Source of the DNA: a virus
DNA: 42,354 nucleotides
Reading direction: 5' to 3' (one strand)
Virus record (IMG/VR): IMGVR_UViG_3300029327_000044
Location: 1-42,354 of that record
Shown here: positions 26,889-34,196 of the stretch, one piece after another
Layout of the letters: each line of letters starts with the position of its first letter
How positions within the stretch are numbered: the first letter of the stretch is position 1
The notes under the pieces: generated by a model
What the model was told of the DNA's origin: nothing
Seen by the model: the letters and a program-made list of their open reading frames with translations, nothing else
Databases searched by the model: none
Program-made: the position numbers and the translations under genes

Positions 26889-27305
26889 TTACCAAGGCGC
26901 TATAACCGGTATGATTTGCCTGGCGTTTCGACGATAGGTCGTAAAATCGCTGTCTGTCGTAAAAACAACGGAGTCGTTATGGATTTCACTCATGCGCACC
27001 AGACACGCATCGGCGAAACTCATGGGCGTATCCCGGTAGCGACGAATCAGGTGCAGCGTTTCCTCCAGGTGGGGAGTCAGCGAAAACTCCACCTTGATGA
27101 TCCCGCGTTCCAGAAGTGTGCAGAGCGTCTCTTTCCCTTGTTTGGCGCGTTCAAGGAGAAAAAAGCTTTCCGATACGACGGCTTCGCAGGTCGCGCACGG
27201 AGTCGTAAACGCTTCAAAGTTTGATCTCGCCCAGACGTGATGCTGATCCCGTTTGCGCAAGGCGGCAACAATCGCCCCGCTATCGATGAGAACGGTTTTT
27301 GCCAT
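26889..27305 (-). CDS. PIN-domain ribonuclease toxin (VapC-like)
   Basis: The 138-residue protein has the PIN active-site pattern: Asp8 in TVLIDSGAIVAAL, an acidic residue in the CEAVVSESFFLL helix (Glu41/Glu46), Asp99 in PMSFADACLVRM, and Asp118/Asp120 in VVFTTDSDF. VapC-type toxins cut RNA when not bound by antitoxin. It is read from the strand opposite to the structural genes, downstream of and overlapping (26 nt) an antitoxin gene. The pair can act as an addiction or anti-phage (superinfection exclusion) module. Confidence 0.85.
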   Translation of the reverse strand: MAKTVLIDSGAIVAALRKRDQHHVWARSNFEAFTTPCATCEAVVSESFFLLERAKQGKETLCTLLERGIIKVEFSLTPHLEETLHLIRRYRDTPMSFADACLVRMSEIHNDSVVFTTDSDFTTYRRNARQIIPVIAPW

Positions 27306-27522
27306 ACTTTTGAAGGTGCTTCTTATTAGAGGAAAGGTCGGTCGGCAGGGCGTCTTCTTCGATCACCAGATCGGCCATGCGACTCCAAAGGGAGGGTTGT
27401 TCTTTGGAGACCCGTTCAAGACGTTCGCGGACAATAACAGATTTGGCGATTTTTCGCTCCTTGGCAGCGTGGGTAATCTCCGCAAACAGCAATTCCGGCA
27501 ACTTGACGGTGAGCGTTTTCAC
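27280..27522 (-). CDS. Antitoxin of the PIN toxin (ribbon-helix-helix-like)
   Basis: From GTG 27522 this gives 80 residues starting VKTLTVKLPELLFAEITHAA then KERKIAKSVIVRERLERVSK, a beta strand plus two helices as in RHH/CopG-type antitoxins, with a C-terminal tail (SRMADLVIEEDALPTDLSSN) to bind the toxin. A start at ATG 27585 would add 21 residues and overlap the TTGACAT copy there, so the start is uncertain. It precedes and overlaps the toxin gene, the usual type II order. Confidence 0.7.
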   Translation of the reverse strand: MKTLTVKLPELLFAEITHAAKERKIAKSVIVRERLERVSKEQPSLWSRMADLVIEEDALPTDLSSNKKHLQKYGKNRSHR

Positions 27523-27578
27523 AGGAGAGAATGTAATACGTTTGTGGCAGACTCGCAACACAAATATTTTCCGCGCCG

Positions 27579-27585
27579 TTGACAT
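27579..27585 (+). promoter_or_regulatory. TTGACAT heptamer, 19 nt before the connector start
   Basis: Lies between the divergent antitoxin gene and ATG 27598. Confidence 0.6.
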
Positions 27586-27597
27586 CCTGCTTCGAGC

Positions 27598-27900
27598 ATG
27601 AAGCACGAAAAAGCCGCCGATCTGGCAAAAATATTGGATGAAGTTGGGGAACCGGTTACTTGGAATGGGCAGACTCATAAGGCGCTCGTTTCCGATCCCA
27701 CCATCGGGGAACATCTGGACCTTGGCGGGTTCACTGGCACCGGCGATTTTACCATCAAGATTCCCCGGACTGCATTTGGAACCCGGTTTCCCAAGCTTGG
27801 GGAAATCGTTGAATTTGAGGGGGACCGCTTCCGCATTGAGCGGATTACGAACCATCCTCAATATCCCCTTCTGGTCATCGTAGTTGGGCCGCTGGACTAA
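27598..27900 (+). CDS. Head-tail connector / stopper-like protein
   Basis: The 100-residue protein is beta-rich after one N-terminal helix (KHEKAADLAKILDEVGEPVT; GDFTIKIPRTAFGTRFPKLG; EIVEFEGDRFRIERITNHP). The ending with R-F-R-I-x-x-I and a short hydrophobic strand is the common form of head-tail joining or stopper proteins (FII or HK97 gp7-like). Position after the capsid gene and before the tail-terminator-like gene fits. The function is by analogy. Confidence 0.62.
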   Translation: MKHEKAADLAKILDEVGEPVTWNGQTHKALVSDPTIGEHLDLGGFTGTGDFTIKIPRTAFGTRFPKLGEIVEFEGDRFRIERITNHPQYPLLVIVVGPLD

Positions 27901-27906
27901 CGCGCC

Positions 27907-28314
27907 ATGCTCGACCACGCCCTTGAATCGGCATTCCTTGCCGTGCTGCAAGGCAACGTCTTACTCTCTGGAACGGTCTCGTTCTTCACCGGCCATGATA
28001 GCGACGAGCACGGCCTCCCCGCCGTGACGCTTTCCAGCAAATCAGAACCGCTCGCCGGTTCGAGCGAGGTGTTCCGATCCGAGCTTTCGGTGATCGTCGA
28101 AAGCGAAGCCCACGATAATTCCCCTAACGAACACGTCGCCCTTGTGGAGAAAGTTCGCGTATGCCTTGCGGGCCGGATGGACGTGGCTGCCAAGATTAAT
28201 ACCGGTAACTCGGTCCACATCTACGGTTACGCATTTGCGGGGTCCGCATTGGAAACCGACAGCGCCCGGTTCCGCACGACGCTGACGCTCAAGGTCGGCT
28301 ACGGCGTTCCGTGA
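27907..28314 (+). CDS. Tail terminator / tail completion-like protein
   Basis: The 135-residue protein has a helical start (LDHALESAFLAVLQGNVLLS) and a central alternating-strand region (FRSELSVIVESEAHDN, HVALVEKVRVCLAG, then TDSARFRTTLTLKVGYGVP), the alpha-beta layout of gpU-like or gp10-like proteins that cap tail tubes. It sits between the connector and the tube-like gene. The assignment rests on order and fold impression, not on a signature motif. Confidence 0.55.
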   Translation: MLDHALESAFLAVLQGNVLLSGTVSFFTGHDSDEHGLPAVTLSSKSEPLAGSSEVFRSELSVIVESEAHDNSPNEHVALVEKVRVCLAGRMDVAAKINTGNSVHIYGYAFAGSALETDSARFRTTLTLKVGYGVP

Positions 28315-28342: not shown

Positions 28343-28669
28343 ATGCCTGCCACCGACGTAAAATTTGGAATTACCAAGCACCAGGGCGCGTTGATCGATT
28401 CTGTCGAGGTCGAAAAGAAGATCGAACAGAAGGCGCTCAAAGGATCGAACGGCAACGTGGCCCGCGTCCACGTCTACAACCCAACCACCTCCGGCACCGT
28501 CAAGGGACACGGGGAATTGACCATCGTCCCCGGGGTCGGCGATCCCTGCGTGTCCGGCGTAACGGGCGGCGTTACCGTGATCCCCAGCGTGAAGGAATCG
28601 GAAAGCAACGAGGACTTCGGCGGCTGGGAATATGGGTTTGATAACTACCCGAACGCCGAGGAGGTCTAG
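28343..28669 (+). CDS. Tail tube-like small beta protein
   Basis: The 108-residue protein (MPATDVKFGITKHQGALIDS then VEVEKKIEQKALKGSNGNVA) has a strongly beta-alternating body with TSGTVKGHGELTIVPGVGD, a pattern seen in small tube-type or minor tail proteins (Hcp/gpV fold). Position ahead of the chaperone and tape-measure genes supports a tail tube or tube-initiator role. At 108 residues it is shorter than usual tube proteins, so this is tentative. Confidence 0.5.
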   Translation: MPATDVKFGITKHQGALIDSVEVEKKIEQKALKGSNGNVARVHVYNPTTSGTVKGHGELTIVPGVGDPCVSGVTGGVTVIPSVKESESNEDFGGWEYGFDNYPNAEEV

Positions 28670-28671
28670 CC

Positions 28672-29112
28672 ATGAAGGAAGGCGATAAAATTTGCATTGT
28701 GCGGGAGATGGATGTTGATCCGGTCACTTCCGAGAATACCTCCATGGTGGCCGCGCTCGTGACGCTTGGGGTTCCCTTTTACGAAACCCAGCCGTTTCTT
28801 GAAACCCGTGAAATAACTAACGGCGAGGAAAAGCGCACAATGACGTGGTGCCTCGGGACCAAGACGGAGGATGGTCGGTTTAAAACCTGTGAACTGATCC
28901 AGTGGTGGAAAGATGATGCGTGGTGCCATTCAAATCCCGATCATCCACTTTCTTACGCCAAGGCTGCCGTGACCAATTTCCAGCGGCTCACGGCGGGCAT
29001 TTCAACCTCCGTGCCCGTCGCTCTGGTTCGCAAGGGCAAGAAATTCGCCCTCATTCCCTTTGACGCGCCGTCCGACCGCCGTCAGCAACTTCTCGATGCC
29101 TTGAACAAATGA
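28672..29112 (+). CDS. Unrecognised tail-region protein
   Basis: The 146-residue protein has an excellent ribosome binding site (GAGGAGGT, 28658-28665) and overlaps the following gene by ATGA. Visible features are an alpha-beta N-terminus (NTSMVAALVTLGVPFYE), the TMTWCLGTKTEDG strand, Trp-rich LIQWWKDDAWC, and a C-terminal helix-strand unit. No family is recognised. Tight coupling to the tail chaperone suggests a structural or assembly role. Confidence 0.5.
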   Translation: MKEGDKICIVREMDVDPVTSENTSMVAALVTLGVPFYETQPFLETREITNGEEKRTMTWCLGTKTEDGRFKTCELIQWWKDDAWCHSNPDHPLSYAKAAVTNFQRLTAGISTSVPVALVRKGKKFALIPFDAPSDRRQQLLDALNK

Positions 29113-29537
29113 AAGATTCCCGTCAAAACACCCTCGCTGAAATATTCGTCACCGGCTCGGCCAAGATCGCCGGGTTGGAATGTCGCCCGTTCTCCCTTGG
29201 CACGCTGACGGCGGCGCGCCTCCTCGGCCTCGCCCGCGTGGTCGGCGAATGCGACGGCCCCTGCAAGGAATGGCGGATGGAGCGCCAGATGGCTGCTCTT
29301 CTGTTTATCCAGAGCCAGCCGATTGTGGACGTTCAGGAACTGGTCCGGTTCGCCAAGGATGAGGATACGGATGCGTTGGATGAGAGGCTGCTTGCCTTTG
29401 AATTGGAAATCCCGCTCAACGCGCTCTCCGATCTCTCGGCGCAGATTGAAGGCGACTCCGACGCAGTTGCCGCCGCGCAGTTCGACTTGGAATCGAAGCC
29501 CGGTGAACGGACGGAAGCCGAGCCCCCAAACTCCTAG
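29109..29537 (+). CDS. Tail assembly chaperone, zero-frame product (gpG-like)
   Basis: The 142-residue protein, read without frameshift, begins KDSRQNTLAEIFVTGSAKIA and contains CRPFSLGTLTAARLLGLARV, a helical tail-chaperone pattern. Its last codons cross the slippery site CCCAAAC (29525-29531) just before the TAG stop (29535-29537). In lambda and many siphophages the equivalent gene lies directly before the tape measure and makes a short and a frameshifted long form, both needed for tail assembly. Here the long form is the next entry. Confidence 0.75.
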   Translation: MKDSRQNTLAEIFVTGSAKIAGLECRPFSLGTLTAARLLGLARVVGECDGPCKEWRMERQMAALLFIQSQPIVDVQELVRFAKDEDTDALDERLLAFELEIPLNALSDLSAQIEGDSDAVAAAQFDLESKPGERTEAEPPNS

Positions 29538-29746
29538 AGCCAGGGTGGCTGGCAGCAACTGTATTCACCCTGGCGCGAGAAACCCGCTGGCCTCGGGATT
29601 TTATCCTCTGGCATCTGCACCTCTCCGAGATGCTTCAATACCGTCACTGCGCCTTGCGTGCGGCAGGTAAGTGGACGGTCTCCCCTGCTCCACCTCCGCA
29701 AGACCAGTTTGCACAACTCTTCGGCAACTGGAAGCCGTTGTCATGA
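29109..29746 (+). CDS. Tail assembly chaperone, -1 frameshift long form (gpGT-like)
   Basis: A -1 slip at CCCAAAC (29525-29531) joins 141 zero-frame codons to a 71-codon extension read from 29531 to 29743, stop TGA 29744-29746, for 212 residues. The extension has no ATG of its own and looks coding: EPGWLAATVFTLARETRWP, then RDFILWHLHLSEMLQYRHCA and DQFAQLFGNWKPLS. That W-L-x-x-x-x-x-L-A-R segment resembles T-type chaperone domains that bind the tape measure. The stop overlaps the next gene's ATG. Evidence is the canonical heptamer, a downstream hairpin and a protein-like extension. Confidence 0.8.
29525..29550 (+). other. Programmed -1 frameshift site with stimulatory hairpin
   Basis: CCCAAAC fits X-XXY-YYZ in the zero frame (C CCA AAC). 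After a 6-nt spacer holding the zero-frame TAG, AGCCA (29538-29542) pairs with TGGCT (29546-29550) around GGG. The spacing is that of known stimulatory hairpins, although the stem is short. Confidence 0.8.
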
Positions 29747-30402
29747 ACGTCCGCTGCAAAGTCGACACATCGAAGGTCCAGGCGGCGATCAAGAACCTCG
29801 CCCCCTACGTCAAGAAGTCCCGCAAGGAACTGGTCGAGCAGGCGGCGCGAGGATTTGTGCGAACCGTTGCACAGGTCACGCCGCCCGCTTCCAAAGGTGT
29901 GACGGGAAGCGCCGCAAAGAAACAAGGCGAAGCCACGATCACCAAAGATCTGGCGCGTGTGATGATGCCTGTGCGCCCATCCCGCACGTCCCAGCTTCAA
30001 AACGCCGCTGATATTTATCGGCGGTTTCGTGACAAAAACACGGGCCGGATCAATCCGCGGAACCTCAAGAATCCGTATCCTGTTTCCAGCGCGGAATACA
30101 ATGCCCTTCGCAAAATGCTCTTCGCGCGGGTAGGCTGGCTCGCTTCCGGTTGGAACGTTGCAGCGCAAAAGCTTGGCGTCCGGCTCCCTGCGTGGATCGC
30201 CCGGCATCCCGCTCCTGGCGGGTATGTACCGAGCAGCGATGCGCGGCGGTTCCGGCTTGAAGTAAGCAACGCGGTCAAGTTTGTCGGAAGCGTCAAAAAT
30301 TACGAGGGCCGCATCGCGAAAGCCGTTCAATATCAAGCCAATGCTATGCAACGTCAGGCGGACTATCTCTTAAAAAAATCAGTCAAGAAGGCGGGATTTT
30401 GA
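29743..30402 (+). CDS. HK97 gp10-like tail component
   Basis: From ATG 29743, overlapping the frameshift-product stop, this is a 219-residue basic protein. The N-terminus (VDTSKVQAAIKNLAPYVKKS then RKELVEQAARGFVRTVAQVT) resembles HK97 gp10/minor tail proteins (helix followed by A-x-x-x-x-P). A central Arg/Lys-rich region and RLEVSNAVKFVGSVKNYEGR follow. Such proteins complete the head-tail joint or the tail. The gene order, after the chaperone rather than before, is unusual for gp10, so the family call is tentative. Confidence 0.5.
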   Translation: MNVRCKVDTSKVQAAIKNLAPYVKKSRKELVEQAARGFVRTVAQVTPPASKGVTGSAAKKQGEATITKDLARVMMPVRPSRTSQLQNAADIYRRFRDKNTGRINPRNLKNPYPVSSAEYNALRKMLFARVGWLASGWNVAAQKLGVRLPAWIARHPAPGGYVPSSDARRFRLEVSNAVKFVGSVKNYEGRIAKAVQYQANAMQRQADYLLKKSVKKAGF

Positions 30403-30429
30403 TAACCGAGCCACAAGAGTGGAACCTCC

Positions 30430-31087
30430 TCATCGTTCGTCTTTACGGTAAATTCTTTTCGAATGTTGCTTAGCTCCGTTCTTAAACGTGGAATATTCGG
30501 TATACCAGCCGCCGATTTCATCACGGTCTCTCTTGACTTCCGAGATGACAACCAGTTTCCCGTTTACCCAACGATATTCGCGAGCAGTAGAATACATCCC
30601 GCCTCCCCGAGAATATGATCGAATCACTTTTTTCTGATAATCAGGATATGGAGACCAAAGCTCATCCAACTCCCCGGCACGACACATAACGCCGTATCTT
30701 CGGATCAAAAACAAAATGTCTATAGAAATGTCCGCCCGATCCGCTCTCCTGCCAGAGAAATGATCTGAAATCACGATACCCATCAAAATTGAAGTCGTCT
30801 TGCTCTGCCGTGCATCCGTCAAACGTAATGTCAGTAATGCGCTGAAGAACGGTCTTTTTATCAGCAGCAAGAAGCAGAACCTTGGCTAACCGTTGCTTGT
30901 CTGGTCGAAAATCTGACGGACTCGATTCCATCGTAACTTGAAGATATTCGCATGGTAGTTTCCCTTCCATTCGAACTCGGTAAAGCATACCTGATTCCAG
31001 CATATCAGATTCAAACATTCCTCCATACAGTGATTGCAACGCAGTAAGCGAAAGAGTGATCGCCGCGATGGATGCTCTGGATTTCAT
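30430..31087 (-). pseudogene. Broken secreted-protein gene (XAC2610-like pattern)
   Basis: Read leftwards from ATG 31087, a signal peptide (SRASIAAITLSLTALQSL) is followed by a mature part with FDGCTAEQDDFNFDGYRDFR and FYRHFVFDPKIRRY. The frame then stops, and the natural continuation (GELDELWSPYPDYQKKVIRS, YSRGGGMYSTAREYRWVNGK, ending YSTFKNGAKQHSKRIYRK) lies in another frame to 30430. The break maps to a run of four C on the plus strand (30672-30675). It could be a real one-base mutation or a sequencing error. Like 2351-2938 it is antisense, AT-richer and predicted secreted, so probable cargo. Confidence 0.65.
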
Positions 31088-31223
31088 ATGAAATGTTGGT
31101 TTTTAATGAGCCTCTGCGCTGGAACCCTCAGATTTGAGTTCCTCCTTGGCAAGGATATCTAATGTAGAAGGGTATGTCCAGATAGGCGCTTCTGATCTTT
31201 CGAATTGCAAACGGACCTGGCAT

Positions 31224-31230
31224 TTGACAC
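31224..31230 (+). promoter_or_regulatory. TTGACAC heptamer, 20 nt before the tape-measure start
   Basis: It re-initiates the tail genes after the antisense cargo gene, ahead of ATG 31244. Confidence 0.6.
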
Positions 31231-31243
31231 GCGGCCTTGAGCG

Positions 31244-32815
31244 ATGTCCGCCAAGGCTACCGCCATTTTTGAAGCCGATGACAAGCAGTTCAGTAATGCG
31301 CTCTTAAATATCAACCGCAAGCTGCTGCAATTCCAGCATACCATCGCAAAGCTGGCGATTGGGTTTGAAGTGCTCAAAAAGGGAGCAGAGTTGGTTTCCG
31401 CAGGCGTGGAACATTTCACGGCAGCCTTGGACAAAGGCGGGGAATTATTGGATCTCTCCAATAATACTGGCATTGCCGTGCGTGACCTCGCCATCCTCCA
31501 GCAGCAATTCAAACTTTCGGGAAAAGCAGCGGAGGATGTTGGGCCGGTGATGGCGAAGATGATGAAGGGAATCGAGTCCGGTTCCGCAGCCGGGATCATC
31601 AAACGCTTGGGGTTGGACATGGACGAGCTTCGGAAAAAGACGCCGTCCGACCAGTTCCGCATTATCGGCGAGGCGATCAATAAATTGCCCGATCCCGCGG
31701 AACGGGCCACGGCAGCCATGGAAGTTTTCGGCAAGAGCGGCGCGTCCCTGCTGGCTGTGTTCGCGGATGGCGGCTTTGGACAAGCGGGGGAACAGGTTGG
31801 CAATCAAGCCGAACTCCTCAATAAAGACGCGGCCCTCTTTGATGACATCAGCGACAAGCTGGCAACGGCAGGGTTGAAGGTCCAGGGATTCTTTGTCGGA
31901 GTCGCGGATCGGGTTGCTCCCGTGATCAAGCCTCTCTTGGATCAATTTTCAAAGCTCGATCTTTCTTCGCTTGGACAGGAAGTCGGCGAGTCGATTGCCT
32001 TATTTATCCAGGCGTTCCAGGACGGAAAACTCGGCGAAGTGCTCCTCACATCGATGGAACTTTCCTTCGCGGAAGCGGCGAATTTCCTCCTCGGGTTACT
32101 CACCGCCATTGGCAACGTGCTTGCCCAGATGATGCTGGAGGGGCCCAAAAACGCACTGGCCATTCTGCAAATCGCCACCACGGCGGATTTCTGGAAGGCG
32201 CTCGGTGCGGCGCTCTTGAGCATTGCCGCCCGGTTCACGGCTGCGTTGCTCGGTGCAGTAGCGGAATTGATCGACCAGCTCAAAGACGTTCCCCTTATCG
32301 GCGATAAAATCCACGGCGGCGCACAGGCCGTCCGTTCCAAGGCGAACGAAATGTGGCGAGGAGCCAATGCCATTGACGCTTATGGATCGGAAAAACTCGC
32401 TCCGGCTATCGAGATCATCAAGACCCGCATGGGCGAGGAGTTAAAAAATATCGCTGACGCCGCGGGCAAGGGGTTCAACGAAGGCAATTCCATCATTGAT
32501 ACGAGCGGCATTTCCAAGCGGCTGGATAAAGTCGTTACGGAAGTGCTGGACCACGTTCAGGAAAGCCAGGACGAAGCCTTGAAGGAGCTTCCCACAAAGA
32601 CGCCCAACGCCCCCATTGGCGAACAACTGGATAACAAGCCCGCGTTCTCTCATCTGCAAAAGATCGGCGGCGGCGGTTACACAAGCGCGGGCGACCCGCT
32701 CCTTACCGAAACCCGCCAGCAGACCAAGGAACTTCGGGAACTGAACAAAGGAGTGAAAACGCTCATCGAAAAGCAGCCTCGGCAATCCGCAGGGCTCACC
32801 CCGGTCTTCACGTAA
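31244..32815 (+). CDS. Tail tape measure protein
   Basis: The 523-residue protein is helix-rich with a start (MSAKATAIFEADDKQFSNAL) typical of tape measures, Ala/Leu/Gln-rich coiled segments, FGKSGASLLAVFADGGFG (the F-G-x-x-A-x-x-L-x-x-x-x-x-D pattern found in TMPs), a hydrophobic central part (about 275-355) and a mixed C-terminus. It sets tail length and helps DNA ejection. At roughly 0.15 nm per residue the tail would be near 80 nm, a short siphovirus tail. It follows the antisense cargo gene. Confidence 0.85.
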   Translation: MSAKATAIFEADDKQFSNALLNINRKLLQFQHTIAKLAIGFEVLKKGAELVSAGVEHFTAALDKGGELLDLSNNTGIAVRDLAILQQQFKLSGKAAEDVGPVMAKMMKGIESGSAAGIIKRLGLDMDELRKKTPSDQFRIIGEAINKLPDPAERATAAMEVFGKSGASLLAVFADGGFGQAGEQVGNQAELLNKDAALFDDISDKLATAGLKVQGFFVGVADRVAPVIKPLLDQFSKLDLSSLGQEVGESIALFIQAFQDGKLGEVLLTSMELSFAEAANFLLGLLTAIGNVLAQMMLEGPKNALAILQIATTADFWKALGAALLSIAARFTAALLGAVAELIDQLKDVPLIGDKIHGGAQAVRSKANEMWRGANAIDAYGSEKLAPAIEIIKTRMGEELKNIADAAGKGFNEGNSIIDTSGISKRLDKVVTEVLDHVQESQDEALKELPTKTPNAPIGEQLDNKPAFSHLQKIGGGGYTSAGDPLLTETRQQTKELRELNKGVKTLIEKQPRQSAGLTPVFT

Positions 32816-32820
32816 TCGCA

Positions 32821-33558
32821 ATGGACGAAACACCGCTTCAGCTTTTAGGAATCAACGGTGGCGTCGATAAGCACGGCATCACCAGTGTTACCGTGCCGTT
32901 TTATGTTGCCACGCTTTCCGAGGCGATCTCCTACACGCCCAAGCTGGACATTGATCTTCCCATCGTCTCCCGCAGTTTCCGGCAGAGCGAAGATGGTGGG
33001 TACGAAGTAACACTCACATGCGAAGGGGCCGAGGATAACCCAACTGACGATCAGAAGACCTTTGAAATTGATGCGTCCATGTCCGAGGAAGCTATTAAGA
33101 CGCATCCGAAGTTCGAGAATTTGAAAAGCTCGTTCGGATGGGATGAGTCGCTCAATACCTTTTCCGAATATCTTCCTTCAAGCACATCTTCTGGCGGACT
33201 GGCAAGCGGTTCGCAGAACGGATCAGCTCGGCAAAAGAGCAAGATGTATGGCGTGGAATCATGGCTCGTGGCCGGAGCGATTTATCGCGTCACCTACGGA
33301 TCGAAAACCGTGCCGCAGTCCATCTTTTTTGGAATCGGCACGGTACAAACACCGCCCTCCATCGGAAAATTCAACCTACCCAATCTCGGAAAGCGCAACT
33401 GGCTCAAATTGGCGCCGAAGGTTCGGATGCGCGGAAACAGCATCGAAATCTCGCTTGAATACATGCTCTCCGGCCCGTTGGGGTGGTTTACGGAGGTCTA
33501 TGCTTCGGCCCAACTTGGCGAATCCAGCAGCGGGAGCTTTGGTGCCAGCTTGAGTTGA
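32821..33558 (+). CDS. Distal tail-like protein, unrecognised
   Basis: The 245-residue protein is beta-rich (ITSVTVPFYVATLSEAISYT, YEVTLTCEGAEDNPTD, KTFEIDASMSEEAIKTHP) with a Ser/Gly-rich loop (SSTSSGGLASGSQNGSARQK, about 121-140) and a second beta half ending SGSFGASLS. It lies 6 nt after the tape measure, where the distal tail protein is usually encoded. No motif allows a firm family call. Confidence 0.5.
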   Translation: MDETPLQLLGINGGVDKHGITSVTVPFYVATLSEAISYTPKLDIDLPIVSRSFRQSEDGGYEVTLTCEGAEDNPTDDQKTFEIDASMSEEAIKTHPKFENLKSSFGWDESLNTFSEYLPSSTSSGGLASGSQNGSARQKSKMYGVESWLVAGAIYRVTYGSKTVPQSIFFGIGTVQTPPSIGKFNLPNLGKRNWLKLAPKVRMRGNSIEISLEYMLSGPLGWFTEVYASAQLGESSSGSFGASLS

Positions 33559-33560
33559 TT

Positions 33561-34196
33561 ATGTTTGAAGACGTACATCCCGGCGATCCGATCCCGCTCC
33601 TTGCGTCATTCTGGAACAATCTCAAGGCGATGGTGCGGGCGCGGCGATTGTTGCCGGGCGTGGGCGTGCGGCTTCGTGAGATGCCGTTTGGCACCATCGT
33701 CAATTTCGATGCAAACGCCGCTGTGTGGGATCATCCGTGGCGAGTATCGTTGGAATCCAAGCAGGCGACCTTGAGCAAAGGGCTCGTAGATGGGATCGAG
33801 CCGAAAATTGGCGACCGGTTCATGTCCGGCGACAAAAAGAACCCCGACCCGCCAAGGCTGTCCATTGCTTCGAGTCGGTTCACCTCCAGCGAAGTGAGCC
33901 TCATTTGCGTTGAGATCGTGTGCGATGAGGCGTGGAAAACCAAGACGGCTTCCATCGTTCAGGTCGCCCGGCTGAGTGACACCGATCCCGGTACCCCAGG
34001 TGACGGCAATACGCCGCTGCTACCTCCCGCGCTTTCGGGCCGCAAAACCCGGTATCCGCTCGTTCTGCTTCGAAAGGATGACAACGACAATGTCACCGCG
34101 TTCCAGATCGCCTACTTCAACTTGCGCCATGTGGCGCTTTTTCCTTCCGGCACTACAAATGAAGCACGGGTGCGGCATTTCTTTTTCCCCACCTGA
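33561..34196 (+). CDS. Tail protein with N-terminal module shared with the next gene
   Basis: From ATG 33561 this is 211 residues. The first 55 (FWNNLKAMVRARRLLPGVGV, RLREMPFGTIVNFDANAAVW, DHPWRV) align with the start of the protein at 34196 (N-D/N-x-x-AM-V/I-R-x-x-R-x-LPGV-x-x-R and WDHPW). The rest is beta-rich and acidic. The TGATG overlap with the next gene supports coupling. It is probably a baseplate or tip component, and the function is unknown. Confidence 0.55.
   Translation: MFEDVHPGDPIPLLASFWNNLKAMVRARRLLPGVGVRLREMPFGTIVNFDANAAVWDHPWRVSLESKQATLSKGLVDGIEPKIGDRFMSGDKKNPDPPRLSIASSRFTSSEVSLICVEIVCDEAWKTKTASIVQVARLSDTDPGTPGDGNTPLLPPALSGRKTRYPLVLLRKDDNDNVTAFQIAYFNLRHVALFPSGTTNEARVRHFFFPT

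Follow-up and report, generated by a model that had tools for sequence, protein, structure and literature searches.

The slippery heptamer of phage lambda is GGGAAAG. In lambda, the minority product gpGT connects the major tail protein with the tape measure (PMC5009743). Frameshifting of 6–7% has been measured in an HK97-type tail assembly chaperone cluster, in which a phage-derived chaperone gene has its parts split by a frame transition, as in the putative chaperone gene described here (PMC3711429). In an archaeal-host system, AAC- and AAG-type second codons are found at a G–T junction in the same mixture as in the present family (PMC5009743). The present locus is like lambda gpG/gpGT in that a short gene with a slip site near its zero-frame stop lies ahead of the tape measure and has a −1 extension, from which a minority fusion is expected (PMC5009743). 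A programmed −1 frameshift at CCCAAAC is very likely from the comparison with relatives, and we assign the locus with high confidence to the tail assembly chaperone pairs of the lambda G/GT type. What is directly seen is how the sequence is arranged and conserved, the constraint on its coding, the covariation in the RNA, and the order of the genes; that ribosomes shift, the rate at which they do so, and the chaperone activity are inferred.

The stretch of DNA analysed, 42,354 nucleotides in its full length (the window), is from a virus that is integrated in the genome of a member of the Verrucomicrobia. It lies within contig C27 of a 4.1-Mb draft genome (G000) and carries a phage structural cluster with terminase GpA, S49 peptidase, and tape measure. 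Draft genomes from the Verrucomicrobia hold relatives of the zero-frame gene (in L003, labelled 'Spartobacteria', and in L004, labelled 'Verrucomicrobia'). A tRNA-Glu gene (G000:C27:59774-59846) is located about 490 bp outside position 1 of the window, near a serine recombinase gene (465-1874), and may mark a prophage end. A PIN-domain toxin-like gene (26889-27305, minus strand; PF01850, E 2.5e-11) is antisense inside the head gene cluster, and an ORF just upstream of it (27280-27951, minus strand) is a possible antitoxin gene.

The zero-frame gene (29109-29537, plus strand, as are the other features of the cassette, the 146-aa and 219-aa genes, and the tape-measure gene below) has 142 codons for a G-like product of 142 aa and ends at TAG 29535-29537. 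Its ATG is overlapped by an upstream gene of 146 aa (28672-29112), for which a search of the family libraries gave no match; genes of similar size occupy the same place in L002, L009, and L091. The ORF at 28343-28669 (108 aa), also upstream, is at the place expected for the major tail protein and matched no family.

The heptamer CCCAAAC (29525-29531) ends 3 nt before the TAG, and the gene end reads GAG CCC CCA AAC TCC TAG. A direct check of the phase places CCA at 29526-29528 and AAC at 29529-29531 (C_CCA_AAC), which is the arrangement required for tandem slippage and agrees with the phase given in the earlier note. By themselves, in-phase heptamers close to the end of an ORF are not rare, 14 being found in the final 20 codons among the 248 window ORFs of at least 60 aa; CCCAAAC stands above chance because it is conserved in relatives. 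Elsewhere in the window, the gene at 33483-34196 (plus strand) has an in-phase TTTCCCC 10 nt before its stop and is followed by a gene in the −1 frame; this looks like a chance overlap.

Relatives were collected by a search with an alignment of the extensions. It yielded 79 viral contigs and, among 388 genomes of the phylum, 10 with matches, one of these being the genome that holds the window; tblastn of the extension against named phages gave no match. The zero-frame proteins of the relatives are 16–89% identical to that of the window. An in-phase X_XXY_YYZ heptamer is kept at the junction in 72 of 74 distinct relatives, namely, in all 70 loci of distinct sequence and additionally in L093 and L098. 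The two exceptions are L091, which has no heptamer because its two parts are fused in frame, and L096, which has GGGAAAC at the right place and was entered as unclear because only 20 zero-frame codons precede it. In the 70 loci, the junction heptamers are CCCAAAC (50), GGGAAAC (13), GGGAAAG (2), AAAAAAG (2), AAAAAAC (2), and GGGAAAA (1), so that the sequence of the slip site varies while its slipperiness is retained. The share of AAC-ending sites (65/70) is partly inflated by the collection, since the viral loci were gathered in part by a peptide pattern that starts with K-L and thereby favours sites with C after AAA. The pattern selects neither the XXX triplet nor the phase, and the genome matches from the profile search likewise carry heptamers. 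In four close relatives, whose zero-frame proteins are 80–89% identical, CCCAAACTCCTAGAGCC is unchanged and the extension is present. In L006, the −1 frame has a stop 6 nt before the heptamer and the zero frame has its TAG 10 nt after it, which confines the shift to a short stretch. A second copy of the cassette with the same heptamer is found in the same genome (L002; G000 contig C15, about 180443-181244), its zero-frame part being 32% and its extension 39% identical to those of the window. The junction sequence and the extension score of an IMG/VR locus, L076, are equal to those of L002.

Downstream of the heptamer, a candidate stimulatory stem-loop occupies 29539-29574, with a stem of 9 bp (10 with a G-U pair) between 29539-29547 and 29566-29574 and a loop at 29548-29565. 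The 66-nt stretch with the stem has a minimum free energy of −25.2 kcal/mol (z −2.05). A search of 29300-29900 against Rfam gave no match. In the gap-free alignment, the spacer is 7 nt long (29532-29538, with the zero-frame stop within it), whereas the earlier note had given 6 nt; the stem lies in the canonical range of about 5–9 nt downstream of the heptamer for a stem-loop or pseudoknot. The small hairpin proposed in that note also gives way to the 9-bp stem, since the 5-bp candidate that was probably meant (29539-29543/29549-29553) is 62.8% paired versus 62.4% in shuffled sequences and shows no covariation.

The pairing of the 9-bp stem is conserved beyond what slid registers give. In the gap-free alignment of 56 sequences, 92.2% of the stem cells are paired, compared with 33–41% when one arm is slid, and the covariation score is 0.400 versus at most 0.092 in the slid registers. 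Both sides have changed in 57 cells and at five of the nine pairs, and one position shows GC, CG, AU, UA, and UG among relatives. On a tree from the zero-frame protein, 14 compensatory branch changes are counted versus 0–4 in slid registers. Full pairing is present in 62.5% of the sequences and in 18% after shuffling of synonymous codons among the sequences, a shuffle that ignores relatedness, whereas the tree count and the slid controls respect it. The stem could be explained alternatively as a by-product of conserved codons, with shifting dependent on the heptamer alone, since its arms encode the conserved residues E-P and L-A, its three outer pairs are nearly invariant, and the relatives most distant from the window (L077 and L083-L088) lack this exact 9-bp stem. 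This explanation is improbable, because the inner pairs change on both sides, the pairing is lost on the codon shuffle, and the tree events exceed those of the slid registers. The 9-bp stem is thus preferred as a stimulatory element.

The following mechanism is suggested by this arrangement. The majority of ribosomes would terminate at TAG 29535 to give the 142-aa G-like protein. A minority would be slowed by the 9-bp stem starting 7 nt past the heptamer and slip back one base, the tRNAs on CCA and AAC re-pairing with CCC and AAA. The slipped ribosomes would resume at CTC 29531 to produce a G–T fusion of 212 aa (141 + 71), with the predicted junction peptide TEAEPPNLLEPGWLAATVFTLAR. If the products act as in lambda, the tape-measure protein would be coated by the G part, and the T part would bring in the major tail protein.

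The extension (29531-29746), which corresponds to a T-like domain, runs in the −1 frame from CTC 29531 through 71 sense codons and ends at TGA 29744-29746; this stop overlaps ATG 29743-29745 of the next gene, as had been noted earlier. Its sequence behaves as a coding sequence in this frame. Among close relatives, dN is 0.07–0.13 and dS is 0.93–2.3 in the −1 frame, with the opposite relation in the other two frames. The dN/dS ratio of about 0.05–0.11 indicates strong purifying selection, and the differences concentrate at the third position of the −1-frame codons (e.g., 9, 4, and 37 at the three positions). The earlier note had named heptamer loss and stops within the extension as signs against its claim, and the claim withstood this test: among the homologues, the heptamer is missing in the fused L091, with L096 unclear, and −1-frame stops occur in none of 69 loci, partly by definition since the span was chosen as the open −1 frame, compared with zero-frame stops in 58 and +1-frame stops in 68. 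Invariant residues are seen across relatives, the conserved ones beginning at the slip site itself (KL.EP) and running through W...FI.WELP....QY.HCALR....WTV.

The position of the start codons should be noted here. The extension was previously described as having no start codon; there is an in-frame ATG at 29630-29632, but it is residue 35, inside the conserved domain, and no start codon precedes it. Because of this ATG, and because several relatives have ATG, GTG, or TTG about 6–15 codons into the extension, the −1 frame might constitute a distinct small gene that has its own start and whose translation, after the zero-frame stop, is independent. However, K1, L2, and P5 are conserved at the slip site, ahead of any start codon, and the start positions are not conserved, the first 40 codons of L022, L074, and L077 having no start at all. 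These observations make an independent start unlikely. Moreover, in L091 (genome G235, contig C21, about 30434-30613), the upstream protein carries this domain in frame at its C terminus, and a single ORF spans the G-like and T-like parts without a break. This natural fusion indicates that the two parts belong together, and we regard a separate gene as very improbable. L091 is an in-frame G–T fusion without a slip site.

The single ORF of L091 could also be taken to mean that the window has a pseudogene or a sequencing error, i.e., one gene broken by an indel. The split arrangement with its in-phase heptamer recurs in about 70 relatives, and purifying selection acts on the extension, making a broken gene a negligible prospect compared with the programmed shift. 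The comparison gives strong support to the central claim of the earlier note, that a tail assembly chaperone is extended by a −1 frameshift: the heptamers are kept though varied, selection acts on the extension, the stem covaries, the parts are fused in L091, and a tape-measure gene lies downstream.

The assignment to tail chaperones comes from gene order and the two-part architecture rather than from sequence or fold similarity. The tape-measure gene of the window (31244-32815, 523 aa) matches phrog_9483, tail length tape measure (E 1.6e-13), and tape-measure genes are also found downstream in L003, L026, L053, L066, and L068. The lambda-like place claimed for the cassette holds in that the tape measure is downstream, but it is not directly next to the extension, since a gene of 219 aa (29743-30402) and a stretch with minus-strand ORFs lie between. 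The 219-aa gene stays beside the cassette in relatives and has a weak match to phrog_17843 (E 0.011). The stretch between this gene and the tape measure (30403-31243) contains two overlapping minus-strand ORFs in different frames (30430-30870 and 30662-31087) without a Pfam match. It is absent from L003, minus-strand ORFs occur at the same place in L006, and it may be one inserted gene split by a frameshift.

Searches of the zero-frame part and the extension against Pfam, PHROGs, and NCBIfam gave no match, as did a sequence-profile search of the PDB. AlphaFold2 models of both parts are mostly helical (pLDDT 74.2 for the zero-frame part and 85.6 for the extension). Foldseek searches of the PDB and BFVD gave nothing at E ≤ 0.001; the chaperone-labelled matches were not significant, among them N15 GT at E 0.49, and the VIA-align rows were weak. 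Given this lack of significant matches to known chaperones by sequence or fold, and given that a gene of about 150–270 aa usually separates the extension from the tape measure in the relatives examined, the frameshift might be real and the protein something other than a chaperone, such as a two-form tail or neck protein. We consider this unlikely, since the classic G/GT place, a little upstream of the tape measure, is here taken by a frameshifted gene that has two parts and the size of a chaperone gene, and the tape measure of L066 directly adjoins the extension. The analogy that the cassette would work like G/GT is well supported.

According to the tRNA genes read from the loci, tRNA-Lys(UUU) and tRNA-Lys(CUU) are both present in the host and in most of the relatives checked, and as a hypothesis only, carrying both may disfavour AAG sites. 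The AAG-site relatives G328, G216, and G125 also have tRNA-Lys(CUU), so that the choice of site by a phage is not explained by host tRNA. The host genome also has two TGT-family (PF01702) genes (C27 72340-73419 and C5 59712-60758). We propose only tentatively, and with considerable doubt, the wider view of an undescribed tail chaperone family, common among phages of Verrucomicrobia and related viruses from the environment, that shifts by −1 via AAC-ending ('eukaryote-like') sites and a conserved covarying stem, its AAC preference being tied to hosts in which tRNA-Lys(CUU) in addition to tRNA-Lys(UUU) would be expected to render AAG less slippery.

The sequence family, its slip-site variants, and its covarying stem appear to be without description in the libraries and freely available papers searched. 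The locus fills in an unannotated tail-assembly gene for phages of a poorly studied phylum, and the family profile and RNA signature can be used for finding further members. The natural slip-site variants and the compensatory stem changes provide a test series for frameshifting by bacterial ribosomes other than those of E. coli. Unlike the HK97-type cluster, which is similar to an HK97 protein, the window family matched no family library (PMC3711429), and it differs from the archaeal system in its hosts (PMC5009743). Unlike lambda gpG/gpGT, the window family shows no sequence relationship that could be detected to any family in the libraries, and the window has CCCAAAC with a covarying 9-bp stem 7 nt downstream as well as an additional gene of 219 aa ahead of the tape measure. 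The kind of frameshifted chaperone is already known from phage lambda; the window family is very probably a sequence-divergent member of this G/GT kind from phages of Verrucomicrobia.
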